A DNA stretch of 64,000 nucleotides, taken from positions 1-64,000 of the forward strand of contig JAUNGD010000004.1 of NCBI GenBank assembly GCA_030524705.1. Reading direction: 5' to 3'. Shown in pieces: positions 14,938 through 32,855 of this stretch. The position numbers and the translations under genes are program-made. The notes below the pieces were generated by a model. That model had not been told where the DNA came from. It did not search any database and worked only from the letters and a program-made list of their open reading frames with translations. Numbering within the stretch: the first letter of the stretch is position 1; the number at the start of each line of letters is the position of its first letter. The DNA is from Lachnospiraceae bacterium (lineage in GTDB: Bacteria > Bacillota > Clostridia > Lachnospirales > Lachnospiraceae).

Positions 14938-15789
14938 ATGAGCGAGGCACAGAATCGTGAAAAGATACAATTGGAGAAGCTGGAGCATTTGAAAAATGAC
15001 CTGCGGAGCATGAAAAGCGTTGCCGTGGCATTTTCAGGAGGCGTGGATTCCACGTTTTTGCTGAAGGCGGCTCAGGAGGCACTGGGGGATCAGGTGATCG
15101 CAGTGACGGCAAAGTCCTGCTCCTTCCCTAAGCGGGAGCTGGAGGAGGCAAAGGCCTTCTGTGCGAAGGAGGGGATCCGCCATCTTATCGTGGAGTCCGA
15201 GGAGCTGCAGATTGAGGGCTTTTCCCAGAATCCGAAGAACAGATGCTACCTGTGCAAGCGGGAGCTGTTTGAGAAGATCGGAAAGATCGCAGAGGAGAAT
15301 GGCATCGCGTATATCGCGGAGGGCTCCAATCTGGACGACAACGGAGACTACCGGCCGGGGCTGCAGGCCGTGGCAGAGCTGGGAGTGAAGAGTCCGCTTC
15401 GCGCCGCGGGACTGAGTAAGCAGGAGATCCGGGAGCTTTCCAGGAAATATGGCCTTCCCACCTGGGAAAAACAATCCTTCGCGTGCCTGTCTTCACGTTT
15501 CGTTTACGGGGAGACCATCACAGAGGAAAAGCTGGGGATGGTGGATAAAGCGGAACAGCTTCTTCTGGATCTTGGCTTTCATCAGGTGCGCGTCCGTATT
15601 CACGGCAGGATGGCCAGAATAGAGATACAGCCGGAGGAATTTGCCCGGCTTTTGGAGGAGAAAACCAGGAGGGAGATCGTCGGCAGACTGAAGGAATACG
15701 GCTTTACCTATGTGTCTCTTGACCTGCAGGGATACCGTACCGGCAGCATGAACGAGACACTGGACGAGACGCCGAATAATAAAGAATAA
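14938..15789 (+). CDS. larE: LarE-type ATP-dependent sacrificial sulfur transferase
   Basis: 283-aa PP-loop enzyme. The ATP loop AFSGGVDSTF is at residues 31-40 and the LarE hallmarks AKSCSFPKRE, EGSNLDDNGDYRPG and SFACLSSRF follow. In L. plantarum LarE the Cys of the last motif (here Cys183) gives up its own sulfur to build the nickel-pincer cofactor; this protein also has Cys103 and Cys106, as in LarE forms proposed to hold a 4Fe-4S cluster and recycle sulfur. No larA, larB or larC is in the window, so its partner here may be different. Starts a sulfur-transfer operon. Confidence 0.93.
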   Translation: MSEAQNREKIQLEKLEHLKNDLRSMKSVAVAFSGGVDSTFLLKAAQEALGDQVIAVTAKSCSFPKRELEEAKAFCAKEGIRHLIVESEELQIEGFSQNPKNRCYLCKRELFEKIGKIAEENGIAYIAEGSNLDDNGDYRPGLQAVAELGVKSPLRAAGLSKQEIRELSRKYGLPTWEKQSFACLSSRFVYGETITEEKLGMVDKAEQLLLDLGFHQVRVRIHGRMARIEIQPEEFARLLEEKTRREIVGRLKEYGFTYVSLDLQGYRTGSMNETLDETPNNKE

Positions 15790-15855
15790 AAGAAAAAATA
15801 AAAGAAAGAATACAGACAAAATCTGAAATAAAACTGACTGAAGGAATGGAGATAG

Positions 15856-16647
15856 ATGTTAAATCAATTTTCAAGGACAGAGCTGTTGTTCGGAAAAGAA
15901 GCAATGGAGATTCTGCAAAATTCCAGAGTGGCCGTTTTCGGAATCGGAGGAGTGGGCGGCTATGCCGTGGAAGCGATGGCGAGAAGCGGGGTAGGAACCA
16001 TCGACCTGATCGACGACGACAAGGTGTGCCTTACGAATCTGAACCGCCAGATCATTGCCACCAGAAAGACTGTGGGCAAATATAAAGTAGATGTGATGAA
16101 GGAGCGGATTCTTGAGATCAATCCGAACGCAGAGGTAAACGTACATAAATGCTTTTATCTGCCGGAAAATAAGGATGAATTTGATTTCACCCAGTATTCC
16201 TACGTGGTGGACGCGGTGGATACGGTGACGGCGAAGATACAGCTTGTATTGGACGCACGGCAGGCGGGAGTTCCCATCATCAGCAGTATGGGAGCCGGCA
16301 ACAAAATCAATCCCGCGGAGTTTGAGGTGGCGGATATTTATGAGACCTCCGTCTGTCCTCTGGCAAAGGTGATGCGCCGGGAGCTGAAAAAGCGCGGCGT
16401 GAAGAAACTGAAGGTGGTGTATTCGAAGGAAAAACCGGTCCGGCCCATAGAGGACATGGCGATTAGCTGCCGGACGAACTGTATCTGTCCGCCGGGGGCG
16501 AAGCATAAATGTACGGAGCGGAGAGACATTCCGGGCTCCAATGCCTTTGTGCCCTCGGTTGTAGGGCTGATTATTGCAGGTGAGGTGATCAAAGATCTGA
16601 CCTGGGATGCGGCGCTGCGGGCCAGAACGGAGGCGGAAGGTGTTTAG
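15856..16647 (+). CDS. tcdA: tRNA threonylcarbamoyladenosine dehydratase (TcdA/CsdL)
   Basis: 263-aa E1-like adenylating enzyme of the ThiF/MoeB superfamily. It has the nucleotide-binding loop FGIGGVGGYAVEAMARSG, the catalytic region DLIDDDKVCLTNLNRQI and the TcdA-type C-terminus SCRTNCICPPG. TcdA cyclises t6A to ct6A at tRNA position 37; in E. coli it works with the CsdA/CsdE sulfur relay. Its 3' end overlaps the GTG start of the next gene by 8 bases, pointing to coupled translation. Confidence 0.93.
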   Translation: MLNQFSRTELLFGKEAMEILQNSRVAVFGIGGVGGYAVEAMARSGVGTIDLIDDDKVCLTNLNRQIIATRKTVGKYKVDVMKERILEINPNAEVNVHKCFYLPENKDEFDFTQYSYVVDAVDTVTAKIQLVLDARQAGVPIISSMGAGNKINPAEFEVADIYETSVCPLAKVMRRELKKRGVKKLKVVYSKEKPVRPIEDMAISCRTNCICPPGAKHKCTERRDIPGSNAFVPSVVGLIIAGEVIKDLTWDAALRARTEAEGV

Positions 16648-17788
16648 AAAAAGGATAGAAGATCTGGTGCAGGAAAACCGTCCTGTGACGATTGTCGATA
16701 TGAGAAGACGGGAGGATTACGAAAAAGAATCCTATCCCGGAGCTATTCATATCGACGGAGATGAAACTGAGGAAATACGGCAGAAGATCAATAAAGAGCG
16801 GCCGGTTTATTTTATCTGCTATACGGGCCAGAAAAGCGACGCAGCGGCGGAGGAGCTTTTGGAAGAAGGATATGAGGCTTACAGTATTGCGGAGGGATAC
16901 CGCGCTTACATCCGGTATAAGCTCCAAAAGCTGATGGCATCAGAAAACGACGCCCGGGAACGGACAAAGCAGATCGAGCGCAGTATCATCAAAAAATTCC
17001 GAAAAGAGCTCTGGTGTCGTTTTACCAGGGCGGTTCGGGAGTACGAGCTGGTGCAGGAGGGGGATAAGATCGCCGTATGTATTTCCGGCGGCAAGGATTC
17101 CATGCTGATGGCAAAGCTGTTTCAGGAGCTGTACCGGCATGGACAGAAGAACTTTGAGCTGGTGTTTCTCGTAATGAATCCTGGCTACAATCCGGTGAAT
17201 TATCAGGTGGTTCTCGATAATGCGAGGCTGCTGGAGGTACCTGTCACGGTGTTCCAGTCAGAAATTTTTGATATTGTAGCCTCGGAGGAGAATTCCCCGT
17301 GTTACCTCTGTGCCAGAATGAGGCGGGGCTATCTGTACAGCAAGGCTCAGGAGCTGGGCTGCAACAAGATCGCCCTGGGTCATCACTATGATGATGTGAT
17401 CGAGACGATTTTGATGGGAATGCTGTACGGCGGCCAGGTGCAGACCATGATGCCGAAGCTTCACAGCACGAATTTTCCCGGGATGGAGCTGATCCGGCCC
17501 CTGTATCTGATCCGGGAAAAGGATATCCGATGCTGGGCTGACTACAATGACCTGCATTTTATCCAATGTGCCTGCCACTTTACGGAGCACTGTGCTTCCT
17601 GCGGGGGAACGGAAAAGGGCTCCAAGCGGGCGGAGGTCAAGGAGCTGATTCGTCAGCTGGCGCAGAAGGATCCGATCATAGAGAGCAATATATTCCGAAG
17701 CGTGGAAAATGTAAATCTGAATACGGTGATTGCATATAAAAAGGACGGTGCCAGGCACCATTTTCTTGAGGAATATGAGGAAAAATAA
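16640..17788 (+). CDS. Rhodanese fused to a TtcA-like PP-loop thiolase
   Basis: 382 aa with two domains. Residues 1-95 are a rhodanese domain with active loop CYTGQKS. Residues 105-380 are a TtcA/TilS-type ATP-dependent sulfur-insertion domain: PP-loop ISGGKDSMLM, CYLCARMRRGYLY (CxxC), GHHYDDVIET and the Cys-rich segment CACHFTEHCASCGG. TtcA makes 2-thiocytidine in tRNA with an Fe-S cluster; the fused rhodanese may supply persulfide directly. Start chosen as GTG 16640 (GGAGG upstream); a longer frame exists inside tcdA. Confidence 0.88.
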   Translation: MFRKRIEDLVQENRPVTIVDMRRREDYEKESYPGAIHIDGDETEEIRQKINKERPVYFICYTGQKSDAAAEELLEEGYEAYSIAEGYRAYIRYKLQKLMASENDARERTKQIERSIIKKFRKELWCRFTRAVREYELVQEGDKIAVCISGGKDSMLMAKLFQELYRHGQKNFELVFLVMNPGYNPVNYQVVLDNARLLEVPVTVFQSEIFDIVASEENSPCYLCARMRRGYLYSKAQELGCNKIALGHHYDDVIETILMGMLYGGQVQTMMPKLHSTNFPGMELIRPLYLIREKDIRCWADYNDLHFIQCACHFTEHCASCGGTEKGSKRAEVKELIRQLAQKDPIIESNIFRSVENVNLNTVIAYKKDGARHHFLEEYEEK

Positions 17789-17845
17789 TAGGTTGAGACG
17801 GTTGAAGACGGAGTTTGAGCAAAGCGAGTATGGGAGGTATGAAGA

Positions 17846-18013
17846 ATGCAGAAAGGTGAGCAGACGAAGCGAGAGGGCAGCAGAATATCGGAGAAGGATC
17901 TGAAGAAGATCGTGGAATATATCGAGGAAATACAGTTCGGATCGGTCTCTGTCGTGATCCAGAACGGCAAGATCATACAGATCGAAAAGAACGAAAAGAT
18001 ACGGTTGAGTTAA
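17846..18013 (+). CDS. YezD-like DUF2292 small protein
   Basis: 55-aa protein with GGGAGG eight bases before ATG 17846. Its core, from ISEKDLKKIVEYIEEIQFGS through VVIQNGKIIQIEKNEKIRL, matches the DUF2292 (YezD) pattern: a helix followed by two strands. These proteins are commonly found next to sulfur-assimilation genes in Bacillota, but their role is unknown. It ends the larE operon just before the promoter of the homocysteine-type operon, so it may be a regulator or adaptor for sulfur flow; that is inference. Confidence 0.75.
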   Translation: MQKGEQTKREGSRISEKDLKKIVEYIEEIQFGSVSVVIQNGKIIQIEKNEKIRLS

Positions 18014-18032: not shown

Positions 18033-18061
18033 TTGACAAAATAGAAAAAATAGGATATGCT
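18033..18061 (+). promoter_or_regulatory. Promoter of the sulfur-carrier operon
   Basis: TTGACA (18033-18038), 17-bp spacer, TATGCT (18056-18061). Predicted start near 18068. Confidence 0.7.
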
Positions 18062-18081
18062 CGTTTAGAATAAAACATATA

Positions 18082-18105
18082 ATTCATACCAAAATAGTAT
18101 AGAAT
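18082..18105 (+). promoter_or_regulatory. Operator-like inverted repeat just after the transcription start
   Basis: ATTCATAC (18082-18089) and GTATAGAAT (18097-18105) are inverted repeats with one extra base. The shape ATAC-N7-GTAT placed just after the start is what an Rrf2-type sulfur regulator such as CymR might bind; no such gene is in the window. Confidence 0.4.
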
Positions 18106-18127
18106 AAAATGAACTGACCAGAAAACT

Positions 18128-18165
18128 GGAGGTTTTAGCAAAATACGCTAAAGCCTTCTTTTTTT
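18128..18165 (+). terminator. Leader terminator (attenuator) before the MetY-like gene
   Basis: A 12-bp stem (18128-18139 with 18147-18158, two G-U pairs, 7-nt loop) is followed by seven T and lies only 28 bp before the start codon and about 60 nt after the predicted transcription start. A small hairpin CCAG-AAAA-CTGG (18118-18129) overlaps its foot. Confidence 0.8.
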
Positions 18166-18192
18166 GGTTAATTTCTAAAAAGAGGAAAAATT

Positions 18193-19425
18193 ATGCAATT
18201 CAACACGAAATTACTGCATGGAAAATCGGTCAGAAGATACGCGGAGGGCGCGACGGTGCCTCCGATTAGTCAGGTCAGCGCCTTTTCTTATGAAACGGCG
18301 GAGGAGCTGGAAAAGGTATTCGAAAACAAAGCGCCGGGCTTTGCCTATACAAGGATCGGCAATCCTTCTGTGGATGCATTTGAAAGGAGAGTAGCGGAGC
18401 TGGAGGGCGGCCTGGGAGCCGTGGCCTGCGCGTCGGGCATGTCGGCGGTGACGTTGTCGCTTCTGAACATCCTGCAGGCCGGCGACGAGGTGATCGCAGG
18501 AAGCGGGCTGTTCGGCGGTACGATCGACCTTTTCAGTGATCTGAAGGCCTTTGGGGTCACCGTCCGGTACGTGAAGCACATCACGGTGAAGGAGATCGGG
18601 CCTTTGGTCACAGAGAAGACGAAGGCCGTGTTCGGAGAGGTAATCGGCAATCCGGGGCTGGACGTCATTGACATCCGGGCGGTTTCCGATTTTGTACATA
18701 GCAAGGGCATTCCGTTTATCGTGGATTCTACGACGGCGACGCCTTATCTGGTGCAACCCTTCACCCTGGGGGCGGATATTGTCGTGCACTCTTCCTCCAA
18801 GTATATCAATGGAGGCGGAAACTCCATCAGCGGAATCATCGTAGACGGCGGAAGGTTCCGCTTTGCGCCGGATCGCTATCCGGGCTTTGAAAAGTACAAA
18901 AAGTACGGGAAGCTTGCATATCTGGCGAAGCTCAGAAACGGGATCTGGCGAAATATGGGAGGCTGCCTGGCACCCTTCAACGCCTTTCTGAACGTGATCG
19001 GCATGGAGACGATGGGCCTTCGGATGGAGCGGATCTGCGAAAATGCAAAGCAGCTGGCTCTGGCGGTCAATAAATTCGAGGGCGTGTCGGCGGATTACCC
19101 GGCGCTCTATGGAAATCCCTACGCAGAGCTGGTGGAAAAGCAGTTCGGCGGCAGGGGCGGCGGCATCGTAACGATCCGGGCCGGCTCAAAGGAGCGGGCG
19201 TATAAGCTTATGAATGCGCTGAAATACGCGCTGAACGCCACAAATATCGGAGACGTCCGCACCCTTGTGATCCATCCGGCCTCCACGATCTACGTACACA
19301 GTACGCAGCAGGAGAGGGAGGATGCAGGCGTGGCCGACGATATGATCCGTGTCAGCGTCGGAATCGAGGATACACAGGATCTGATCGAGGATTTTACCCA
19401 GGCAATCTTCAGCCTGTACGATTAA
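18193..19425 (+). CDS. metY: Cys/Met-metabolism PLP enzyme (O-acetylhomoserine sulfhydrylase-like)
   Basis: 410-aa cytoplasmic PLP enzyme of the cystathionine-gamma-lyase/MetY family. Visible: YTRIGNPSVDAFERRVAELEGG, ACASGMSAV (phosphate loop), and the PLP-lysine segment VVHSSSKYINGGGNSISG. It would replace the acetyl group of O-acetylhomoserine (or -serine) with sulfur. Directly downstream lie a sulfite reductase, a sulfur-carrier protein, its activating enzyme and a JAMM protease, the set found around MetY in Wolinella, where thiocarboxylated carrier, not free sulfide, is the donor. RBS AAGAGG before ATG 18193. Confidence 0.9.
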   Translation: MQFNTKLLHGKSVRRYAEGATVPPISQVSAFSYETAEELEKVFENKAPGFAYTRIGNPSVDAFERRVAELEGGLGAVACASGMSAVTLSLLNILQAGDEVIAGSGLFGGTIDLFSDLKAFGVTVRYVKHITVKEIGPLVTEKTKAVFGEVIGNPGLDVIDIRAVSDFVHSKGIPFIVDSTTATPYLVQPFTLGADIVVHSSSKYINGGGNSISGIIVDGGRFRFAPDRYPGFEKYKKYGKLAYLAKLRNGIWRNMGGCLAPFNAFLNVIGMETMGLRMERICENAKQLALAVNKFEGVSADYPALYGNPYAELVEKQFGGRGGGIVTIRAGSKERAYKLMNALKYALNATNIGDVRTLVIHPASTIYVHSTQQEREDAGVADDMIRVSVGIEDTQDLIEDFTQAIFSLYD

Positions 19426-19437
19426 GGAGGAGAAAAA

Positions 19438-20301
19438 ATGGCAGTGGATTATGCAGCATTGAAAAAAGGCGGCTTCATGAGACAGAAGCAGAAAAATAAT
19501 TTTTCCCTGAGACTTCGGGTGGTGGGAGGTAATCTGACGGCGAAGCAGCTTGCTAAGATTGCGGAGGTTTCGGAAAAGTACGGCGACGGATACGTTCACC
19601 TCACTTCGAGACAGAGCGTGGAAATACCGTTTATCAAGCTGGAACAGATCGACGAGGTAAAGAATGCGCTGGCCCAGGGAGAGGTGGCTCCCGGCGTCTG
19701 CGGCCCGAGAGTCCGCACCGTCACCGCCTGTCAGGGTGCCGCCGTATGTCCCAGCGGATGTATTGATACGTATGCTCTGGCAAAGGAACTGGATGAGCGG
19801 TATTATGCCCGGGAGCTGCCGCACAAATTTAAGTTTGGAATTACAGGATGCCAGAATAATTGTCTGAAGGCAGAGGAAAATGACCTTGGCATAAAGGGCG
19901 GTATCCAGGTGAAATGGGTGGAGGACGCCTGCATCCAGTGTGGCGTCTGCGTGAAAGCCTGCAGAACGGAGGCCATCACCCTGGAGGACGGAAAGATCAG
20001 CATTGATTACAGCAAATGCAATTTCTGCGGAAGATGTACAAAGGCCTGTCCGGCGGATGCTTACGAGGAAACGCACGGATACATCGTTTCCTTCGGCGGA
20101 CTGTTTGGAAACAGCATCGCCCAGGGCGAATCCGTGATCCCGTTCATCGAGGATCATGAAAAGCTTTTGAAGATCTGCGACGTGGCGATTCAGTTTTTTG
20201 AGAAACACGCCAAGGCCGGAGAGCGCTTCAAATTCACGCTGGACCGTGTAGGACATGACGTGTTTGAAAAAGAAATCAGGGAGGCATATGAGAATGGCTG
20301 A
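19438..20301 (+). CDS. Siroheme sulfite reductase with ferredoxin domain
   Basis: 287 aa. N-terminal ferrodoxin-like half-domain, then the siroheme/4Fe-4S ligands TACQGAAVCPSG (C-x5-C) and ITGCQNNCLKAEENDLG (C-x3-C), with an inserted 2x4Fe-4S ferredoxin module CIQCGVCVKACRTEAI and CNFCGRCTKACPADAY. This compact form resembles clostridial assimilatory or AsrC-like sulfite reductases. It should supply sulfide for loading the carrier protein. The linker between metY and this gene is 12 bp with AAGGAGG; its end overlaps the TusA start. Confidence 0.92.
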   Translation: MAVDYAALKKGGFMRQKQKNNFSLRLRVVGGNLTAKQLAKIAEVSEKYGDGYVHLTSRQSVEIPFIKLEQIDEVKNALAQGEVAPGVCGPRVRTVTACQGAAVCPSGCIDTYALAKELDERYYARELPHKFKFGITGCQNNCLKAEENDLGIKGGIQVKWVEDACIQCGVCVKACRTEAITLEDGKISIDYSKCNFCGRCTKACPADAYEETHGYIVSFGGLFGNSIAQGESVIPFIEDHEKLLKICDVAIQFFEKHAKAGERFKFTLDRVGHDVFEKEIREAYENG

Positions 20302-20539
20302 TATTGTGTACGATGATTACGTGGATATCACAGACGTTGTGTGCCCGGTCACCTTTGTCAAGGCGAAGGTGGCTCTGGAGGAGCTGGAGGACGGGCAGAT
20401 CCTGGCGATCCGCATGAACGACGGGGAGTCGGTGCAGAATGTTCCCCGGAGTATAAAGGAAGAGGGACACCGGGTAAAGAAGCTTCAGGACAATGGGGAC
20501 GGAACGTACACGCTGTTCGTCCAGAAAGAAGGGGATTGA
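20294..20539 (+). CDS. TusA-family sulfurtransferase
   Basis: 81-aa single-domain sulfur carrier of the TusA/YedF/SirA fold. The persulfide Cys lies in DVVCPVTFVKAKVALEEL; the usual second Pro of CPxP is Thr, a variant shared by a clostridial subgroup as I recall it. ATG 20294 is 9 bases after AGGGAGG (an alternative ATG at 20288 is too close) and lies inside the end of the sulfite reductase gene. Likely passes sulfur from reductase or persulfide to the ThiS-like carrier. Confidence 0.87.
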   Translation: MADIVYDDYVDITDVVCPVTFVKAKVALEELEDGQILAIRMNDGESVQNVPRSIKEEGHRVKKLQDNGDGTYTLFVQKEGD

Positions 20540-20540
20540 T

Positions 20541-20858
20541 TTGGCAGAACGAGTAGGCAGGGATGAATTTGAGGGCAGGGTGCTTTCGAACGGAAAGCTG
20601 TCCCTGATCGAGTTTTACCACGACGGCTGTGTCGCCTGCAAAATGCTCTCTCCGGTGCTGGCTGAAATAGAGGAAAAATACGGGGAACAGCTTTACGTGG
20701 GAAAGGTCAATACTGTTTATGAGGAGGAGCTGACGGAGGAATATAAGGTGAAGGCTTCCCCCACCCTGATCTTTTTTAAAGACGGCAGACCGCTGCTGAA
20801 GCTGATCGGGACGCAGAAGAAAAACGAGCTGGAAAAGATTATTGAAGAAAATTTATAA
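20541..20858 (+). CDS. Thioredoxin-like protein with CVAC active site
   Basis: 105 aa with TTG start (AAGGGG upstream), overlapping nothing and separated by one base from tusA. The thioredoxin fold is clear: FYHDGCVACKMLSPVL active site and the cis-Pro loop KASPTLIFF. The dipeptide between the cysteines is VA rather than GP, so its redox potential probably differs from the housekeeping thioredoxin at 6.9 kb. Within this operon it may reduce persulfide or disulfide intermediates. Confidence 0.88.
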   Translation: MAERVGRDEFEGRVLSNGKLSLIEFYHDGCVACKMLSPVLAEIEEKYGEQLYVGKVNTVYEEELTEEYKVKASPTLIFFKDGRPLLKLIGTQKKNELEKIIEENL

Positions 20859-20880
20859 TTGATAGAGGAGAAAAGCAGAT

Positions 20881-21087
20881 ATGAATATTACGGTGGCTGG
20901 CGAGAAAAAAGAGGTAAAGGACGGACTTACCGTTGCGGAGCTGATCGTGCAGGAGGACGTGGAGACGCCGGAGTACGTTACAGTTTCTGTAAATGAGGAG
21001 TTTGTGGAAAAAGAAGATTTTTCTGCCCTCACGCTGAAGGACGGAGACGTCGTTGAATTCGTATACTTCATGGGAGGTGGACGGTAG
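20881..21087 (+). CDS. ThiS-like sulfur carrier protein with masked GG terminus
   Basis: 68-aa ubiquitin-fold carrier (ThiS/MoaD family). The C-terminus is FMGGGR: the diglycine needed for thiocarboxylation is covered by one extra Arg. In Wolinella HcyS and mycobacterial CysO systems a JAMM protease is involved in processing the carrier; a JAMM gene is two genes downstream here. ATG 20881 follows GAGGAGAAAAGCAG. The stop codon overlaps the GTG of the ThiF-type gene by one base, so carrier and activating enzyme are coupled. Confidence 0.9.
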   Translation: MNITVAGEKKEVKDGLTVAELIVQEDVETPEYVTVSVNEEFVEKEDFSALTLKDGDVVEFVYFMGGGR

Positions 21088-21899
21088 TGGCATTTACGAA
21101 CGAGCAGCTTGAGCGCTACTCCCGGCACATCATACTGAAGGAGGTGGGAGCTAAGGGACAGAAGAAATTGATGAATGCCAGGGTACTAATCATCGGGGCG
21201 GGCGGCCTTGGAGCGCCTGCGGCAATGTATCTGGCGGCGGCAGGAGTCGGCACCATCGGTATCGCAGATGCGGACGAGGTGGATCTGTCCAACCTGCAGC
21301 GCCAGATCATCCACAGTACGGAGGATGTGGGCAAGGCAAAGGTCCAGTCTGCCAAAGAGACCATGAATAAAATGAACCCGGACGTAACCGTTCGGACGTA
21401 CCGTACCTTTGTGAGTGCAGAGAATATTATGGAGCTGATTCAGGATTATGATTTTATTATTGACGGCACCGACAATTTTCCTGCAAAATTTTTGATTAAT
21501 GACGCCTGTGTGCTGGCAAAAAAACCTTTTTCCCATGCGGGGATTATTCGCTTCCGGGGGCAGCTTATGACCTACGTTCCCGGAGCGGGCCCCTGCTATC
21601 GCTGTGTTTTCAAGGATCCGCCGCCAAAGGACGCGGTGCCTACCTGCAAGCAGGCCGGAGTCATCGGGGCAATGGGAGGCGTGATCGGAAGCCTTCAGGC
21701 TATGGAAGCAGTGAAATATATTCTGGGAGTAGGGGATCTGCTCACGGGCTATCTGCTGACCTTTGATGCGATAAAGATGGAGTTCCGCAAAATAAAGCTT
21801 CCGTCCCGGGTGGCCGACTGTGCGGTCTGCGGGGAGCATCCCGACATCACGAAGCCCATTGATTATGAGCAGACTGTTTGCGAAGGAGTGGGAATATGA
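21087..21899 (+). CDS. ThiF/MoeB-type carrier-adenylating enzyme
   Basis: 270-aa E1-like enzyme that would adenylate the C-terminal glycine of the ThiS-like carrier and allow its conversion to a thiocarboxylate. Loop IGAGGLGAPAAMYLAAAG, R-finger region SNLQRQIIHSTEDVG, zinc Cys pairs CYRC and CAVC, and the DGTDNF motif are present. GTG start at 21087 with GGGAGG upstream, overlapping the previous stop; its TGA overlaps the ATG of the JAMM gene by 4 bases. Equivalent to HcyF in the Wolinella pathway. Confidence 0.92.
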   Translation: MAFTNEQLERYSRHIILKEVGAKGQKKLMNARVLIIGAGGLGAPAAMYLAAAGVGTIGIADADEVDLSNLQRQIIHSTEDVGKAKVQSAKETMNKMNPDVTVRTYRTFVSAENIMELIQDYDFIIDGTDNFPAKFLINDACVLAKKPFSHAGIIRFRGQLMTYVPGAGPCYRCVFKDPPPKDAVPTCKQAGVIGAMGGVIGSLQAMEAVKYILGVGDLLTGYLLTFDAIKMEFRKIKLPSRVADCAVCGEHPDITKPIDYEQTVCEGVGI

Positions 21900-22306
21900 T
21901 TACGATTTCTGCCGGTGATTTTGAAAAAATCGTACAGCACGCAAGGTCTGAGTTGCCGGAGGAGGCCTGCGGCCTAATCGCCGGAGTCCGGGAGGGAGAG
22001 AACCGAATCATAAAAAAGGTCTACTTTTTGACAAACCTTGACCATTCCAACGAGCATTTTTCCCTCGATCAGAAGGAACAGCTAAACGCCGTCAAGGATA
22101 TGAGGGCGAAGGGGCTTGTACCCCTGGGCAACTGGCATTCCCACCCGGAGACCCCGGCGCGGATGTCCCAGGAGGATAAGCGCCTGGCCTACGATAAACA
22201 GGCAAGCTATATGATTCTTTCTCTTATGGATAAGGAAAATCCGGTGCTGCATTCCTTTCGCCGAAGCGGGGACGAATTCAGCCCGGAAGAGGTAGTAATA
22301 AAATAA
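21896..22306 (+). CDS. JAMM (M67) metalloprotease for the sulfur carrier
   Basis: 136-aa zinc protease of the Mec+/HcyD type. The JAMM signature is complete: Glu in LPEEACGLIAG and HSHP-ETPARM-SQED, that is HxH-x7-SxxD. In the Mec+ and HcyD systems such enzymes cut the carrier protein near its C-terminus. Here it could remove the Arg from GGGR, free the amino acid from the carrier, or both. Translationally coupled to the adenylating enzyme (ATGA overlap). Last gene of the operon. Confidence 0.92.
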   Translation: MITISAGDFEKIVQHARSELPEEACGLIAGVREGENRIIKKVYFLTNLDHSNEHFSLDQKEQLNAVKDMRAKGLVPLGNWHSHPETPARMSQEDKRLAYDKQASYMILSLMDKENPVLHSFRRSGDEFSPEEVVIK

Positions 22307-22325: not shown

Positions 22326-22368
22326 GGGCGCTGCGGTATCAAATCACTCTTCGCAGCGCCCTGTCTTT
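22326..22368 (+). terminator. Terminator of the sulfur-carrier operon
   Basis: Arms 22326-22335 and 22352-22361 form a perfect 10-bp stem followed by a T-rich tract. Lies between convergent genes. Confidence 0.7.
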
Positions 22369-23477
22369 TATCTGTCTTTTGCCAGCTCCTGAATTTTCTC
22401 CAGGCAGGAATCGAAAAACATCCTGTAGCTTTCGCAGTAATAATTTTCATATGTATTGCTGTCCGGGTTGTAATCCCGGTTGCGCTGGCAGCCGCCCTTG
22501 CATATCCAATGGTATTTGCAGTCTCTGCACCTGGCGGACAGCAGGTAAGAACGTTCGACAAATCCGATTTCACTTCGTTTCTGATTAATCTGAGAAAAAT
22601 TGTTCTCGTTGAAATTCCCCAGAAGATATTCATCCAGCATGTAAAAATCACAGGGATAAACGTTGCCGTTGGCCTCCACCACATTTTGAATGCTGCAGAC
22701 GCCGCACTGGTCACAGGAAGCGGGGTAGTATCCGGCGGCAATGCTGATATAGTTTTCAAACTGGCGGTTATAGGGGGCGCGGCCCTTTTGGACATCCCGG
22801 TACCAGAGCGAAAACAGGTCAATTAAAAACCGGCCGTAAAGCCGGGGCGGCAGGGCGTGGGGCGTCTGCCCGTGAGCTTCTCCCAGAGGATCAAGGCAGG
22901 GGATATATTGCTGATAGCGCCAGCCCTGTTTTTGGTAGAAGGAATACACCTCATCGACCTGACTGGCGATCATCGGAGTAACGACTGTCAAAATATTGTA
23001 TTCTACGTGAAACTGATCCATGAGCCGGGCAGCCCGGACTGCCATATGAAAGGTACTGCCGCCGGAGGCGGTATGCCGCAGTCCGTCGTGGATTTCCTGC
23101 GTTCCGTCTACGGACAATCCCACCAGAAATTTGTTTTCAGATAAGAAGCGGCACCAGTCTTCATTGAGCAGGGTTCCGTTGGTCTGGATAGCGTTGTAAA
23201 CGGCAATTCCCTTTTTGTTGTAGTGCTGTTGATAATAAAGCGCTTTTTGAAAAAAAGGAATGCCGATCAGGGTGGGTTCTCCGCCCTGAAACATATAATG
23301 AGCTGCGCCCTGCGCATTTAAAATGGTCTTTCGGATGACATTTTTCAGGGTGGCCTCGGACATAAAGCCGTAGGATGCCTGACTGCGTTTGGAAGTCTCG
23401 TCACAATAAAAACAGTAATCACAGCTCATATTGCACATGCCGGAGGCAGGTTTAATCAAAACGGAAACGGGGGGCAT
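22368..23477 (-). CDS. Anaerobic sulfatase-maturating radical SAM enzyme (anSME)
   Basis: 369-aa radical SAM/SPASM enzyme that oxidises a Cys or Ser of a sulfatase to formylglycine. Radical SAM motif CNMSCDYCFYC (residues 17-27 of the chosen start), GGEPT, then auxiliary-cluster cysteines CDQCGVC and CRDCKYHWICKGGC near the end, the arrangement known in anSMEs. Start ATG 23477 with AAAGGAGAATTTATC; an upstream in-frame ATG is weaker. A type I sulfatase with the matching Cys motif is encoded on the divergent side at 26.9-28.2 kb. Confidence 0.92.
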   Translation of the reverse strand: MPPVSVLIKPASGMCNMSCDYCFYCDETSKRSQASYGFMSEATLKNVIRKTILNAQGAAHYMFQGGEPTLIGIPFFQKALYYQQHYNKKGIAVYNAIQTNGTLLNEDWCRFLSENKFLVGLSVDGTQEIHDGLRHTASGGSTFHMAVRAARLMDQFHVEYNILTVVTPMIASQVDEVYSFYQKQGWRYQQYIPCLDPLGEAHGQTPHALPPRLYGRFLIDLFSLWYRDVQKGRAPYNRQFENYISIAAGYYPASCDQCGVCSIQNVVEANGNVYPCDFYMLDEYLLGNFNENNFSQINQKRSEIGFVERSYLLSARCRDCKYHWICKGGCQRNRDYNPDSNTYENYYCESYRMFFDSCLEKIQELAKDR

Positions 23478-23571
23478 GATAAATTCTCCTTTTATATTCA
23501 AAATTTATATCATTGTAGCAGAAAAAGTGTTGAAACGCTATATAAAATAACGAAAAACCATATAAAGCAGA

Positions 23572-23637
23572 ACAACTTTTGGGTGAAATGCTTAAAACCA
23601 GACAACTTTCTGATAAAACTGCTCAAACTTATTGTTT
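23572..23637 (+). promoter_or_regulatory. Direct repeats upstream of the TTT operon promoter
   Basis: ACAACTTT occurs at 23572-23579 and again at 23602-23609, exactly 30 bp apart (about three helical turns), each followed by A-rich sequence and GCT(T/C)AAA. They end just before the -35 and could bind the GntR-type regulator of this locus. Confidence 0.5.
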
Positions 23638-23660
23638 TGAAAAAACCCGTATGCTATATT
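23632..23660 (+). promoter_or_regulatory. Promoter of the TTT/sulfatase operon
   Basis: TTGTTT (23632-23637), 17-bp spacer, TATATT (23655-23660), 67 bp before the first gene. Confidence 0.6.
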
Positions 23661-23726
23661 GAAATCACCAGGTATCAGAAGAAACGCTGATATCAAAACA
23701 TGCAACCTTAAGAAGGGAGAAGGAAA

Positions 23727-24692
23727 ATGAAAAAACGTATTTTAAGCATGGGTGTAGCACTTGGTATGATGGCCAGCATGATGGTAGGAATGACTGCACA
23801 GGCGGCAGAAACATGGACCGTTACATGTCCCTGGGCGCCGTCAGGTGTGGCGGCAATGGTAAGCCAGCAGGCAGCCACAAAATCCACGGAATATTCCGAT
23901 GACCTGATTTTAGTGGCAGAGGCTGTGAAGGGGGATGCAGCTACTGTAAACACCTGGGTGGCCAGCAATCAGGCCGGGGACAATTCCCTGGTATTTGCGG
24001 GAGAGGGCCTGCTCTCCATTACCTCGCTTCTCGATCCGGCGAAGCTGCAGTTTGATTATGAGAATTTTGCATATGTGGAGAATTTGTATTCCTCCATTTT
24101 TGTTCTGTCAGCAGAGGCCTCTCTGGGTCTGGAGGGCGTTGAGGCGCTGGAAGCATATGTGGAATCCGGCGAGGCCATCAGTGTGGCCGTGAACGGCGCC
24201 ACAGGCTCGGAAGCATTTTTGGCGGCGGCTCTGTTCGGAGCAATGGGCGCAGGGGACCAGCTCAAGCTTGTTCCGTATGAGTCAGCGGCAGAGGCGGCTC
24301 AGGCAGTTGCAAAGGGAGAAACCACCTTCGCAGTTTCCCATCAGTCTCAGATTCAGGAGACGTATCAGCAAGGTGACGTAACCATCGTCTGTGCATTTGA
24401 TGAAAGCGCACTGGAGAACGGACCGTTTGCAGGCGTGGAAGGCGTCGGCGAATACGGCTATCCGTACTTCCGCAACCGCTGCTTTGTAATGGCTCCGGCG
24501 GGGACGGAGGAGGAGACGGTAACGGCTCTGAGAACTCTGTATGACGATATTCTGGCGGATGAGGAAGTGACAAGCTGGCTGCAGGATACGATGCTTCTGG
24601 AGGTGGATACCATGACAGAAGAAGACGTGAAGGCGCATATCGAAAATGTAAAAGCGATTGTGGAGGAGTATGAAGAGATCGTAGCCGGATAA
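23727..24692 (+). CDS. Tripartite tricarboxylate transporter binding protein (TctC family)
   Basis: 321-aa extracytoplasmic binding protein. Residues 1-27 form a signal peptide (MKKR, hydrophobic core, cut near AQA/AE); no lipobox. The TctC/Bug pattern is seen from TWTVTCPWAPSG through GATGSEAFLAAALFGAMG. TTT systems import carboxylates and other anions by secondary transport. Here the gene is followed by TctB and TctA homologues and a sulfatase, so an anionic organosulfate is a plausible ligand. RBS AAGAAGGGAG. A terminator-like hairpin follows before the membrane genes. Confidence 0.88.
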   Translation: MKKRILSMGVALGMMASMMVGMTAQAAETWTVTCPWAPSGVAAMVSQQAATKSTEYSDDLILVAEAVKGDAATVNTWVASNQAGDNSLVFAGEGLLSITSLLDPAKLQFDYENFAYVENLYSSIFVLSAEASLGLEGVEALEAYVESGEAISVAVNGATGSEAFLAAALFGAMGAGDQLKLVPYESAAEAAQAVAKGETTFAVSHQSQIQETYQQGDVTIVCAFDESALENGPFAGVEGVGEYGYPYFRNRCFVMAPAGTEEETVTALRTLYDDILADEEVTSWLQDTMLLEVDTMTEEDVKAHIENVKAIVEEYEEIVAG

Positions 24693-24748
24693 ATCCGGGG
24701 TACATTTTCTGCGGAGTAAGGGCGCTGTTTGACAGCTTCGAAGGAAAA

Positions 24749-24793
24749 GGCTGCCGCAAAATCTGATGTTGGTATTTTGCGGCGGCCCTTTTT
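24749..24793 (+). terminator. Intra-operon attenuator between TctC and TctB genes
   Basis: A 14-bp stem (24749-24762 with 24074-type pairing partner at 24774-24787, one U-G pair, 11-nt loop) followed by TTTTT. It would let excess binding protein be made while only some polymerases continue into the membrane genes. Confidence 0.85.
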
Positions 24794-24820
24794 GTAATAT
24801 GAAAAAGGAGGTTGTATCCT

Positions 24821-25336
24821 ATGAAAGATTTGATAGAACGCATAGACAGTGGGTTTGATCGCATTTCCCTGCGGTTGGAGGACAAAGAAATCCAGGCGCC
24901 TGTGGATCTGATCGCCGGTATTCTTTTTCTCTTGTTCGGGGTCTTTATTTTGGCCATAATGCCGGAGCAGGTAACCGTATCGGAGAAGGATGTGGTAAAC
25001 GGGCGGGCATTTCCCACTATGCTGATGGGACTTTTGATGTTTTGCTGTGTACTACTGATCGGTAAGGAGGTAATCCGCATCATCAGAAAGCAGCCGCTGA
25101 CCCGGAAAACCATTAATTTGCTGGTGGAGGTAAAGGCTCTGGTCATCTTCTGCATCTTGCTGGTTACGTTCCTGATCTGTAAATACACGGGACAATTTGT
25201 AGCAGGAGCGGTTTTCTGCTGTCTTGGATTTTTAATTTATTTTCGCTGTAAAAAGCCGGCCTATTATGCCATTACGCTGGTTCTGGCCGTGGCGATCTGG
25301 GCGGCGTTCCGTTACCTTTTGAAGGTAAATTTTTAA
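24821..25336 (+). CDS. TctB-like small membrane subunit of TTT transporter
   Basis: 171-aa membrane protein with about four hydrophobic segments (AGILFLLFGVFILAIM, TMLMGLLMFCCVLLIG, ALVIFCILLVTFLIC and a C-terminal pair), the DUF1468/TctB layout. Start ATG 24821 with AAAAAGGAGG upstream. It pairs with the large TctA permease 18 bp downstream. Residues 1-25 are charged and cytoplasmic. Sequence in this subunit family is poorly conserved, so the call leans on topology and context. Confidence 0.82.
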   Translation: MKDLIERIDSGFDRISLRLEDKEIQAPVDLIAGILFLLFGVFILAIMPEQVTVSEKDVVNGRAFPTMLMGLLMFCCVLLIGKEVIRIIRKQPLTRKTINLLVEVKALVIFCILLVTFLICKYTGQFVAGAVFCCLGFLIYFRCKKPAYYAITLVLAVAIWAAFRYLLKVNF

Positions 25337-25354
25337 AGAGAGGGGATGAGTTAG

Positions 25355-26854
25355 ATGTTACAATTTATCGGTCCGGCGGCGGGGCTTTTGTTTACGCTGC
25401 AAAATATAATCTGGATTAATCTGGGCGTGTTTATCGGTTCTGTGTTTGCGGCGATTCCGGGACTCAGTGTGATCCTGTGTGTGATTCTGTTTTTGCCGGT
25501 TACTTACAGGCTGAGTGCGATTCCGGGCATGATGTTCCTGCTGGGTATTTATTGTGCGGGCGGTTACGGCGGAAGCGTATCCGCAATTCTGATTAATACG
25601 CCGGGAACGCCCCATGCGGCGGCAACGATGCTGGACGGTCATCCGCTGTCCAAGCAGGGGCGGACGAAGGTTGCGCTTAAGATTGCGCTGTATGCCTCCA
25701 CCTTCGGCGGGATATTTTCAGCAATCACGCTTTTATTTTTGGGGCCGCAGGTGGCCCAGATCGCATCTCAGCTGGGAACGGCGGAGTATTTCATGGTATG
25801 CCTGTTCGGTCTGACCATCATTGCGGGGGTTTCTGGAAAAAGCATGGTAAAGGGTATCATTTCCGCCTGTATCGGATTGTGGATTTCCTGTATCGGTTCT
25901 GACCCCATGACCAGCTATGACCGTTTTACCTTCGGCGTTCCGAGGCTGTATCTTGGCCTGGATCTGGCGGTGTGCCTGATTGGTCTGTTTGCTCTGGTGG
26001 AAATCATGTCAAGAGCGGAGGACAAAAAGGAAGTGCTGCATGTAGATACGAGAAAGATGAAGGATGACGGAGTTCTGACGCCTGATGAGAAAAAGAGAAT
26101 ACGCCTTCCGATTTTCCTGTCTTCCCTGATTGGCGTTATGGTAGGAATTATCCCGGGAACGGGAGCGTCAGAGGCATCCTGGTTCAGCTACAATACGGTA
26201 AAAAATATTTCCAAGCATAAGGAAGAATTCGGACACGGCTCTGTGGAGGGAATCGCTGCGGCGGAGGCGGCTAACAACGCGGTGACGGGAGCCACTCTGA
26301 TCCCGCTGCTTACGCTGGGAATTCCGGGAGACGGAACGGTGGCGATCATGCTTTCGGCGCTGATGATTAACGGGCTGAATCCCGGGCTTTCTCTGTTTAC
26401 GACAGACGGGGACATCATGTATGCAATTATGCTGGGCTTGATTCTGGTAAACGTGTTCATGCTGCTCCAGGGCAAGCTGTTGACGCAGCTTTTTGCCAAG
26501 GTGGTTTTGATCCCGAAGGAAATCCTGACTCCGATCATTGTTATTTTCTGCTTCGCCGGCGCGTACTCTGTGAATAAAAATTATTTTGATGTGGGAGTGA
26601 CGCTGGTATTTGCGCTGATCGCATGGATCCTGCGGAAATTTGACATGCCGGCTGTACCGATTCTTCTGGGTATGGTGCTGGGTAAGATGACAGAGACTAA
26701 TTTCAGAAGGGCGCTGTTTATTTCCGATGGAAACCCGAAAATTTTCTTCAGCAGTATTTATTGCATTATCTTCCTGCTGCTGATCATCGTTGCGATCGGA
26801 GCGATCGTACGCAGCAAAATGACTGAGAACAAAGCAGCAAATAAAGGGGAATAA
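25355..26854 (+). CDS. TctA-like large membrane subunit of TTT transporter
   Basis: 499-aa permease with about 11-12 membrane helices. Conserved TctA segments are visible: GGYGGSVSAILINTPGTP near residues 67-85, and GIIPGTGASEASWFSY and TLIPLLTLGIPGDGT in the second half, the two Gly/Pro-rich repeats typical of the family. It forms the transport channel with the TctB-like subunit. Next gene (sulfatase) starts 4 bp after its stop, so uptake and desulfation are co-expressed. Confidence 0.92.
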   Translation: MLQFIGPAAGLLFTLQNIIWINLGVFIGSVFAAIPGLSVILCVILFLPVTYRLSAIPGMMFLLGIYCAGGYGGSVSAILINTPGTPHAAATMLDGHPLSKQGRTKVALKIALYASTFGGIFSAITLLFLGPQVAQIASQLGTAEYFMVCLFGLTIIAGVSGKSMVKGIISACIGLWISCIGSDPMTSYDRFTFGVPRLYLGLDLAVCLIGLFALVEIMSRAEDKKEVLHVDTRKMKDDGVLTPDEKKRIRLPIFLSSLIGVMVGIIPGTGASEASWFSYNTVKNISKHKEEFGHGSVEGIAAAEAANNAVTGATLIPLLTLGIPGDGTVAIMLSALMINGLNPGLSLFTTDGDIMYAIMLGLILVNVFMLLQGKLLTQLFAKVVLIPKEILTPIIVIFCFAGAYSVNKNYFDVGVTLVFALIAWILRKFDMPAVPILLGMVLGKMTETNFRRALFISDGNPKIFFSSIYCIIFLLLIIVAIGAIVRSKMTENKAANKGE

Positions 26855-26858
26855 AAAT

Positions 26859-28214
26859 ATGGAAAGAAAAAATATTATATTTTATTTCAGTGACCAGCAG
26901 CGATGGGATACCTGCGGGTGTTATGGTCAGCCGCTGGATATTACGCCGAATCTGGACCGGCTGGCGGAGGAGGGCGTCAGATTCGAGAATGCGTTTTCAC
27001 CGCAGCCGGTCTGCGGCCCCTGCCGCGCGCTGTTTCAGACGGGCCGTTATCCCACGGAGACGGGATGCTTCCGCAACAATATTATGCTGCCGGGCAATAT
27101 AAAAACTCTGGGAAATTACATAGAGGAGGCGGGCTATGAAACGGCCTACGTGGGGAAATGGCATCTGGCCAGCGACGGAGAGCTGGAAAAGGCTCCTGTC
27201 GTCGACCATACCATCACGGCGGTTCCCAAAGAGCTGCGGGGAGGCTACACGGGCTACTGGAGAGCTGCGGATGTACTGGAATTTACCTCTCACGGCTATG
27301 ACGGCTATGTATTTGACGAAAATAATAACCGGATTGATTTCAAGGGATACCGGGCGGACTGTATCAATGATATGGCGCTGGAATTTCTGGATGTACGGGA
27401 TCCTGACCGTCCCTTCTTCCTGACGGTTTCCCAGATTGAGCCGCATCATCAGAATGACCGGAAGCATTATGAAGGCCCCGAGGGGTCAAAGGAGAAGTAT
27501 AAGGATTTCGTTCTGCCGGAGGATTTGAAGGCTCTGGGCGGAAATGCCGCGGAGGAGTATCCAGATTATCTGGGGCAGTGTGCCAGCCTGGATATGAATC
27601 TGGGACGTCTTGTGGATAAATTGAAGGAAAAGGGAATCTATGAGGATACGGTTATCATATATGCTTCCGACCACGGTTCCCATTTTCTGACCCGGAACCG
27701 GGACGAGCATTTGAACGGCTATGATGATTACAAGCGCTCCGGGCATGACGCCTGCCTGAAGGTACCGCTGATTATCTCCGGCGGGCCCTTTACCGGCGGA
27801 AAGATAGTAAAGGATCTGGTAAGTACCGAGAGTCTTCCGAAAACGATCCTGGCTTTGGCCGGCGTGGATGTGGGAGATGCCATGATTGGCGAGAACCTTC
27901 TTGACGTGGCGGAGAACAGGACGGATAATAGAGAAAATCAGGTTTTTGCGCAGATATCGGAGAGCCGGGTGGGACGCTGTATTCGTACGCCGGAATATCT
28001 CTATGCGGTGTATGCGCCGGGAATTAACGGCGGTGAGGCGGCTTCTTCGGACCGGTATGCGGATGATTATATGTATGATATGCGCAAAGACCCGTATCAG
28101 CTGAACAATATCGTGAAGGATGAGGCTTATGCTTCCGTGAAGGCGCAGCTTAGGGAGCGTCTGCTGGCGTGGATCGAAAAGGCAGAGGGAAAACGGCCGG
28201 AGATTACGGATTAG
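26859..28214 (+). CDS. Type I sulfatase (cytoplasmic)
   Basis: 451-aa alkaline-phosphatase-superfamily sulfatase. The formylglycine motif is CGPCRALFQTGR near residues 49-60 (C-x-P-C-R-x4-TG), preceded by the metal Asp region FYFSDQQRWDTCGCYG; later metal/active residues lie in GKWHLA and ASDHGSH. No signal peptide: the protein starts MERKNIIFYFSDQQ, so hydrolysis occurs inside the cell on an imported substrate. Cys-type maturation fits the anSME encoded upstream. Similar to choline/aryl or sugar sulfatases; exact substrate unknown. Confidence 0.9.
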   Translation: MERKNIIFYFSDQQRWDTCGCYGQPLDITPNLDRLAEEGVRFENAFSPQPVCGPCRALFQTGRYPTETGCFRNNIMLPGNIKTLGNYIEEAGYETAYVGKWHLASDGELEKAPVVDHTITAVPKELRGGYTGYWRAADVLEFTSHGYDGYVFDENNNRIDFKGYRADCINDMALEFLDVRDPDRPFFLTVSQIEPHHQNDRKHYEGPEGSKEKYKDFVLPEDLKALGGNAAEEYPDYLGQCASLDMNLGRLVDKLKEKGIYEDTVIIYASDHGSHFLTRNRDEHLNGYDDYKRSGHDACLKVPLIISGGPFTGGKIVKDLVSTESLPKTILALAGVDVGDAMIGENLLDVAENRTDNRENQVFAQISESRVGRCIRTPEYLYAVYAPGINGGEAASSDRYADDYMYDMRKDPYQLNNIVKDEAYASVKAQLRERLLAWIEKAEGKRPEITD

Positions 28215-32078: not shown

Positions 32079-32179
32079 GTCATGTCCGGCGGAAACGCAA
32101 TGGTATTTTATTATGAAGAAACAATGGATTTAAGGTAAAAAGAGCAAAAAAATTTTTGTACAAAAATAAGGAGGTAACA

Positions 32180-32743: not shown

Positions 32744-32797
32744 AAAACAGCTGTGAGCACCCGGAGACGGTCGGACAGCGCAGAAAATGAGAAAACG

Positions 32798-32831
32798 GGG
32801 GCTGCCGCGGTATGGTGCGGCAGCTCCTTTT
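32798..32831 (+). terminator. Attenuator hairpin between ahpC and the AhpF-like gene
   Basis: An 11-bp stem (32798-32808 with 32817-32827, one G-U pair) followed by TTTT. It partially separates the peroxidase from its reductase. Confidence 0.75.
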
Positions 32832-32855
32832 CATAAGGACAGAATGGAGAATAAT

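Follow-up and report, generated by a model that had tools for sequence, protein, structure and literature searches.

A probable Wolinella-type protein-thiocarboxylate homocysteine operon, with an added thioredoxin-like gene, in a Lachnospiraceae bacterium

Homocysteine is the precursor of methionine, and in 2011 Krishnamoorthy and Begley reportedly described a route to it in Wolinella succinogenes that is made up of MetY, HcyS, HcyF, HcyD and Sir. Gene neighbourhoods of a comparable kind had been listed five years before: those holding ThiS/MoaD, JAB, E1, sulfite reductase and O-acetylhomoserine sulfhydrylase are stated, in the passages of that paper used here, to “always contain a SirA” (TusA) protein (Iyer et al., 2006; PMC1779556). 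Routes of this kind, in which a small protein carries the sulfur, are already known but little-studied. Here we analyze an operon in a 64,000-nucleotide stretch of Lachnospiraceae DNA (“the window”), in which a thioredoxin-like gene is the extra element. We consider it likely that this is a Wolinella-type protein-thiocarboxylate homocysteine operon because its gene content, its carrier cap and its type of MetY all fit, and the resemblance to the Wolinella pathway proposed by an earlier sequence-only reading is in this respect upheld. Under generic names such as ThiS, MoeB, thioredoxin and MetY, an alternative route to methionine would go unnoticed in anaerobic, gut-type bacteria.

Gene content of the operon

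Seven ORFs, all open and all on the + strand, are tightly packed at 18193-22306 (Table 1). From MetY to JAMM, their junctions are a 12-nt gap, a 14-nt overlap, a 1-nt gap, a 22-nt gap, a 1-nt overlap and a 4-nt overlap. ORFs, spacing and Pfam matches for each gene bear out the seven coupled genes and the identities that the sequence-only reading had given them, and MetY, sulfite reductase, carrier, E1 and JAMM are contained in a single operon. The TTG start of the thioredoxin-like gene at 20541 matches the MAERI/MAVRI starts of its relatives.

Table 1. Genes of the operon in the window
Product	Position	Strand	Domain matches and remarks
MetY-type PLP enzyme, 410 aa	18193..19425	+	Pfam PF01053 Cys_Met_Meta_PP 5.1e-102; assigned to the loop-deleted, thiocarboxylate-type branch (moderate support)
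Small siroheme/Fe-S sulfite reductase (Sir), ferredoxin-type clusters, 287 aa	19438..20301	+	PF01077 NIR_SIR 2e-29, PF03460 2.5e-23, Fer4
TusA-type sulfur transferase, 83 aa, CPVTFVK	20288..20539	+	PF01206 1.4e-19; motif common to relatives
Thioredoxin-like protein, DGCVACK, 105 aa, TTG start	20541..20858	+	PF00085 5.2e-21
ThiS-like sulfur carrier, 68 aa, end FMGGGR	20881..21087	+	PF02597 1.2e-12
E1-like adenylating enzyme (ThiF/MoeB type), 270 aa, GTG start	21087..21899	+	PF00899 3.3e-87; no rhodanese match
JAMM/JAB metalloprotease, 136 aa	21896..22306	+	PF14464 Prok-JAB 1.6e-23

The grouping is not due to chance, since the gene set is found again across loci. Carrier and E1 occur together in 53 family-level loci (the window counted in) and in 21 loci of a phylum sample, and nearly all of these also hold JAMM (52/53 and 20/21) and TusA (49/53 and 19/21). 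In L241, one of the two JAMM exceptions, JAMM and E1 share one 429-aa frame. Sir is present in 33 of the 53 family-level loci, a count to be read with the fact that many of these loci are incomplete (cut short).

The MetY leader yielded no riboswitch: two tRNAs are all that the window gives at gathering level, and the four RNA-family matches to the leader at a relaxed threshold all lie far under the gathering scores of their families. A terminator-like hairpin occurs in 10/55 upstream regions of operon-branch MetYs vs 24/34 of stand-alone ones; as the ten differ in sequence and place, it was rejected as a shared feature.

The capped carrier, its protease and MetY

The carrier ends in VEFVYFMGGGR, a triglycine followed by one arginine. 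ThiS models (Pfam, NCBIfam) stop at residue 67, the third glycine, while the alignment with the best solved relative (2k5p/3cwi) runs through FMGGGK. The capping of the glycines by a single Arg, claimed from the first, is therefore confirmed. Among 74 distinct carriers related to this one, 73 extend 1-18 residues past MGGG. One operon carrier (L045) has lost its tail, which counts against our preferred explanation. The working end of the carrier is probably hidden by this extra residue pending trimming by a protease. Such a one-residue cap is not new in kind, given that Wolinella HcyS is reportedly made as HcyS-Ala.

The carrier also scores as ThiS in NCBIfam (70 bits vs a cut-off of 37), as a second thiamine sulfur-carrier operon would have it. 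We rule this reading out because the genome's own ThiS is encoded on another contig (C49), beside a ThiG-like gene, and ends in FVGGG. All 23 readable ThiG-linked ThiS proteins, this one included, have the plain GGG end. The operon carrier has no free glycine end, and its surroundings gave no recognisable ThiG, ThiH or comparable gene.

The JAMM protein, which has a solved relative in 2kks (4.5e-43), has an intact motif, with E23, H81, H83, S91 and D94 invariant among 29 aligned sequences. It would take off the C-terminal Arg, after which the E1, judging from its family, would adenylate the newly exposed glycine. The E1 alignment contains the CxxC and the TC...G cysteines, and we take the position of its cysteine to be that of ThiF. 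Wolinella HcyD reportedly also releases homocysteine from its carrier; by analogy JAMM likely has a second job, absent from the sequence-only reading, in cutting homocysteine off the carrier.

These same two enzymes could instead serve ubiquitin-like tagging, the E1 joining the trimmed carrier to lysines and JAMM removing it, with the sulfur genes as bystanders. JAMM does match the archaeal desampylase model (78 bits) and E1 the SAMP-activating one (330 bits), each score falling short of the respective cut-off (130 and 450), and ubiquitin-like tagging with JAMM is described for Thermus in the part of the source drawn on here (PMC3980101). MetY, TusA and Sir nevertheless constantly accompany the carrier in the loci, and this, together with the MetY loop signature, ties it to homocysteine chemistry; we regard tagging as very improbable.

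That signature is the absence of a loop of about 10 residues, which the window MetY shares with PDB 3ri6, the Wolinella MetY structure used for comparison, and which stand-alone MetYs retain. The loop is missing in 48/48 MetYs from carrier/JAMM loci, in 14/14 from such loci of the phylum sample, and in two more (L088 and L098). Five other short-loop MetYs come from loci with no carrier or JAMM seen, four of them on contigs of 3.2-4.1 kb and the fifth in L094. Loop absence alone is no proof, because cystathionine-lyase-type paralogues (the genome's own on contig C8; L052 and five others) also lack it, their gap being larger. In a loop-masked tree, 33 operon-type MetYs and 3ri6 fall into one clade with moderate support (UFBoot 79). 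By BLAST-like score the window MetY is closer to the conventional 8sf5 (360 bits) than to 3ri6 (304 bits). Shared loop absence and the clade thus place it, with moderate confidence, in the same branch as Wolinella MetY.

In the Wolinella-type reading, MetY would couple the carrier sulfur to O-acetylhomoserine to give carrier-homocysteine, from which a second cut by JAMM would free homocysteine, as reported for Wolinella. Of the two products named by the sequence-only reading, homocysteine and cysteine, the first is favoured, both by the branch to which MetY belongs and by the presence of a homoserine transacylase in this genome (464 bits). The genome also has two MetYs with the loop (contigs C90 and C72), along with enzymes of the cysteine-synthase type, so the operon route is not its only one. 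Loop absence and carrier cap are both easily read from sequence and could help separate thiocarboxylate users from sulfide users.

Sulfur supply to the carrier

Judged by its matches, the operon sulfite reductase is of the small AsrC/Dsr-like type: its nearest NCBIfam model is TIGR02912 (AsrC; 164 bits, under the curated cut-off of 324.1), and its relatives of known structure belong to the F420-dependent and Dsr-type sulfite reductases. Its expected product is sulfide, which is itself no persulfide donor for TusA. Sulfate as the source of sulfite was not borne out: an AprA-like query (named from its neighbours, with FAD_binding_2 as its only Pfam match) gave one weak match in the window genome (27% identity, 29 bits), although absences are weak evidence in a genome that is 88.3% complete. 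A CysD-type gene (186 bits) lies on contig C132 beside CysN-like and sulfotransferase-like genes, the latter two called by eye.

TusA and the thioredoxin had both been proposed as additions to the Wolinella scheme. As a novelty TusA was rejected, being present in the neighbourhoods of PMC1779556, as far as the passages cited go, and in most family-level loci. The claim stands for the thioredoxin-like gene, a genuine, lineage-limited addition found in 21/53 family-level loci vs 1/21 in the phylum sample. It lies between TusA and the carrier in 20 of the 21 family-level loci that have it; at L057 it is present and TusA is missing from the locus. The classical thioredoxin active site is WCGPC, which this protein does not have: all 21 aligned operon proteins, the window one included, read D[SGT]C..C[KR], and none has a Trp ahead of the first Cys. 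Most likely it would keep the thiol chemistry of TusA, E1 and carrier reduced by acting on a persulfide or acyl-disulfide; no other step of the scheme is as uncertain.

The acyl-adenylate would be turned into a thiocarboxylate by sulfide from the sulfite reductase and/or persulfide passed on by TusA. The relay that the sequence-only reading proposed, with TusA and thioredoxin as intermediates, would be plausible. A variant of our explanation at this charging step, which we hold possible but somewhat doubtful, is that the carrier receives its sulfur from TusA and not from free sulfide: a persulfide, supplied by thiosulfate, a rhodanese or a cysteine desulfurase, would pass via TusA either to the cysteine of E1 or to the adenylated carrier, the thioredoxin-like protein would reduce the resulting disulfide, and the sulfite reductase would be one of several interchangeable sources. 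The higher count of TusA than of Sir in these partly incomplete loci, the place of the thioredoxin gene and the presumed ThiF-like cysteine of E1 all argue for it. So does the failure to find Sir in three of 12 genomes searched (L061, L063 and L073), all three of which have an encapsulin/desulfurase module besides TusA, carrier, E1, JAMM and MetY, although these are MAGs whose completeness is not stated. Against it, E1, ATP and bisulfide reportedly suffice to charge the Wolinella carrier, Sir adjoins TusA in many loci, and L057 has thioredoxin without TusA.

In relatives of the window, the operon is linked with genes for a cysteine-desulfurase-type enzyme and a type 2A encapsulin, a pairing also described in the consulted part of PMC8346489; no encapsulin match was found in the window genome at its 88.3% completeness. 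More speculatively, and in our view rather unlikely, TusA(-Trx)-carrier-E1-JAMM-MetY could be the core of a general sulfane-sulfur acceptor with a swappable source, here the sulfite reductase and in relatives a cysteine-desulfurase/encapsulin store acting via a second carrier that is fused with an E1 of its own. If so, the sulfur of homocysteine would come from persulfide with no passage through free sulfide, and the dedicated thioredoxin would close the redox cycle. The carrier-E1 fusion of the encapsulin relatives has an AGG[AS] site, and these relatives also have a second JAMM. Together, the thioredoxin and the encapsulin link make sulfur delivery to such carriers in cells a directly testable question.

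Comparison with known systems

Within a literature search of mainly openly accessible papers, none was found to combine four of the five themes homocysteine, thiocarboxylate, TusA, sulfite reductase and Clostridi-, and encapsulin was not mentioned among the matches listed. The type 2A encapsulin/cysteine desulfurase system (PMC8346489, in the part used) resembles the present one through its linkage to the operon in relatives only. Closer are the class 4e neighbourhoods (Iyer, Burroughs and Aravind, 2006; PMC1779556), which in the passages cited combine ThiS-like, JAB, E1 without rhodanese, SirA/TusA, sulfite reductase and O-acetylhomoserine sulfhydrylase; the operon has the E1 without a rhodanese domain and the TusA that define this class. 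Unlike that class as there described, it is without sulfate transport and activation genes, and the word “thioredoxin” has 0 occurrences in that paper. TusA stands beside the enzymes here; for Wolinella, a TusA is implied by the general wording of the same paper. The thiamine ThiS/ThiF system shares the carrier fold and the E1 family, and differs in its uncapped carrier; no thiamine genes were seen beside the operon. The nearest counterpart remains the Wolinella succinogenes pathway: the same five enzyme types are found in both, the carrier is capped in both (reportedly as HcyS-Ala in Wolinella) and MetY lacks the loop in both, while in the window the cap is Arg and a thioredoxin-like gene has been added to the operon.

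The operon and its spread among relatives

All seven genes of the operon (MetY, sulfite reductase or Sir, TusA, a thioredoxin-like protein, a ThiS-like carrier, an E1 enzyme of ThiF/MoeB type and a JAMM protease) are open in the ORF reading of the window; no intergenic gap exceeds 22 nt, and three neighbouring pairs overlap. The family of each protein is backed by Pfam, and the carrier ends in FMGGGR, which together bear out the seven-gene operon with a GGGR carrier that the sequence-only reading had claimed. The thioredoxin-like gene starts with a TTG at 20541, in agreement with the MAERI/MAVRI starts of its relatives, and the closest named relatives of the MetY are Eubacteriales and Lachnospiraceae MAGs (MetY scan, best 80 of 132 relatives), which suggests a host in the Lachnospiraceae. 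The leader ahead of MetY matched no Rfam family and is not generally common to the relatives.

In the family, 26 of 250 genomes have the JAMM, the window genome counted, and it was not found in the one same-genus genome listed; in the phylum, the JAMM profile search matched 56 of 398 genomes, some matches being other than this operon. Loci drawn from the family set, the phylum set and a scan for MetY in named genomes (best 80 of 132 relatives) were compared by HMMs made from the window proteins; L057-L098 are operon-like or have the same MetY type, and L099-L136 are mostly ordinary Bacillaceae MetYs. Because many loci end at contig ends or at the fetched length, the counts per locus are lower limits. 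Once the duplicates L042 and L066 are removed, 53 family-level loci hold both carrier and E1; JAMM is present in at least 52 of them, TusA in at least 49, MetY in at least 48, Sir in at least 33 and the thioredoxin in at least 21, the corresponding figures for the 21 phylum-sample loci being at least 20, 19, 12, 14 and 1. In L241, one of the two loci without a JAMM match, JAMM shares its frame with E1.

Coordinates of features in the window, elsewhere in its genome and in loci of relatives
Location	Feature	Basis or remark
14938-18013	Upstream sulfur-type cluster: LarE-like PP-loop protein, TcdA-like ThiF, rhodanese-TtcA-type fusion, DUF2292/OscA-like small protein	LarE-like protein by eye
18033-18192	Promoter-like TTGACA-17-TATGCT, then strong terminator-like hairpin	Directly 5' of MetY
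18128-18158	Terminator-like hairpin	Fold z -6.6; attenuator-like
22368-28214	Downstream: anaerobic sulfatase-maturase-like radical SAM protein (- strand), TctC/B/A-like transporter genes, sulfatase-like gene	By eye
32156-34541	Peroxiredoxin-like gene adjoining thioredoxin-reductase-type flavoprotein with C-terminal thioredoxin domain	Peroxiredoxin by eye; Pyr_redox_2, Thioredoxin_3
L155:8140-12074 (window-genome contig C132)	CysD-type gene with CysN-like and sulfotransferase-like genes	PF01507, 186 bits; neighbours by eye
L045:5669-5881	Tail-less carrier ORF directly ahead of E1 start	GCGGCCGC at the spot
L241:3128-4414	Natural E1-JAMM fusion adjoining capped carrier	One 429-aa frame
L069:9172-13838; L061:3317-7983; further loci	Encapsulin module with operon	PF19307 clustering

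The carrier cap and the MetY loop

The carrier set comprises 74 distinct ORFs (78 before those sharing their last 55 residues were dropped), 73 of which end in MGGG plus 1-18 further residues. This cap is R in 21 carriers, C in 6, AR in 5, Q in 4 and various in the remainder; three of the 73 (the second L227 ORF, L236 and L239) are weaker matches some kb away from JAMM. The sole exception, the carrier of L045, has lost its FLYFMGGG stretch, either by decay or through an assembly error. The control consisted of 31 loci from a ThiS family search (L002 and 30 of 55 matches), 23 of which had a readable carrier and an ORF taken to be ThiG-like from a motif. ThiG-linked ThiS ends exactly in GGG in all 23, the window genome's own among them, and the remaining eight loci hold five capped operon carriers, one carrier-E1 fusion, one GGG-ending carrier from a contig that showed no ThiG, and one ThiG-linked case whose carrier was missed by the search pattern. 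With 73 of 74 carriers of this set capped, against plain GGG in 23 of 23 ThiG-linked proteins, the cap therefore tracks the JAMM operon, and such a variable cap is as would be expected for a sequence cut away and discarded.

Conventional MetYs have a loop of about 10 residues (TEPDPSYHGLVY or similar), present in the window genome's two other MetYs (contigs C90 and C72) and in PDB structures 8sf5 and 7kb0, and missing from the Wolinella MetY structure 3ri6. Among 88 locus MetYs aligned at a score of at least 580 bits, it is absent in all 48 whose locus has a carrier or JAMM match; the 40 lacking such a match include 35 with the loop (all from L099-L136) and five without; L094 is one of the five and adjoins TusA and Sir, and the other four lie on contigs of 3.2-4.1 kb. 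Of the lower-scoring MetYs, at first excluded, those of the operon loci L088 and L098 have no loop and those of L111, L116 and L133 have one, and all 14 MetYs of the phylum sample are loop-less. The MetY of L108 bears the loop and has an E1-like gene in its locus, where an HMM scan found neither carrier nor JAMM. Because cystathionine-lyase-type paralogues (the window genome's own on contig C8; L052, L102, L103, L115, L124, L126) also lack the loop, with a larger gap, its absence is informative only inside the MetY branch. Also against this reading, the window MetY scores higher with conventional 8sf5 (360 bits) than with Wolinella 3ri6 (304 bits); in a 51-sequence, 377-column tree, loop region excluded, 33 operon-type MetYs and 3ri6 form one clade with no conventional MetYs inside, at moderate support (UFBoot 79). 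The absent loop may make space for the carrier tail.

Sulfur entry and the encapsulin link

In 24 loci of relatives, 23 of them distinct (L042 = L092), there is a gene that groups with the type 2A encapsulin of L069 (PF19307, 1.2e-94). Its partners are a cysteine-desulfurase-type enzyme (Aminotran_5), in most cases another JAMM, and an E1-rhodanese protein whose front part is carrier-like, so called from a ThiS-family match in a 502-aa frame of genome G074. Pfam gave no name to this front in L069; AGG[AS] precedes the E1 part in 25 of 25 such proteins compared (24 distinct loci). In the 250-genome family sample, encapsulin occurs in five genomes, all five among the 26 with JAMM (hypergeometric 8.4e-6, with shared descent left uncorrected). 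A term search in the main text of each of two encapsulin papers (PMC8346489, PMC8049743) gave no use of ThiF, MoaD, homocysteine or acetylhomoserine.

The JAMM motif residues are conserved in 29 sequences. A pattern search recovers the E1 cysteines in 49 of 52 proteins, and inspection by eye adds at least two of the remaining three. Trimming, adenylation, charging, transfer and release would be the steps carried out by this operon, the pathway chemistry reportedly coming from the Wolinella work. Sir was not found in three of 12 genomes searched (those of L061, L063 and L073), all with TusA, carrier, E1, JAMM, MetY and encapsulin; in L059 and L062 it is absent from the locus and present elsewhere in the genome. 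These three genomes, and the higher frequency of TusA than of Sir across family-level loci (49/53 vs 33/53), argue for TusA as a sulfur entry point in its own right, an argument weakened by the three being MAGs of unstated completeness. The window genome (3.87 Mb, 145 contigs, completeness 88.3%) gave no close AprA-like match; besides its two loop-bearing MetYs it has a homoserine transacylase and, on contig C8, a pair of PLP enzymes of cystathionine-lyase and cysteine-synthase types. The sulfate activation genes of contig C132 perhaps serve sulfation rather than assimilation.

The thioredoxin-like gene and the known pathway

In all 21 loci that have it, the thioredoxin-like gene lies directly 5' of the carrier, and in 20 it directly follows TusA, L057 being a locus without TusA. 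Its proteins carry the motif D[SGT]C..C[KR] and lack the usual Trp, and in our samples the gene is nearly confined to the window's family, from which the sole phylum-sample case also comes. The flavoprotein reductase at 32156-34541 is a possible reductant for it, and some relatives have a related thioredoxin-reductase-type gene near the operon.

The sequence-only reading held that this version adds TusA and a dedicated thioredoxin. The first addition falls away, TusA being already included in this neighbourhood, which is class 4e of Iyer et al. (2006; PMC1779556), where sulfur of sulfate or sulfite is proposed to end up on the ThiS-like protein; the second stands, the gene being lineage-limited and no description of it in such an operon having been found in the literature searched. 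The operon is real and belongs to a known pathway, beyond which it has one lineage-limited extra gene and two sequence signatures.
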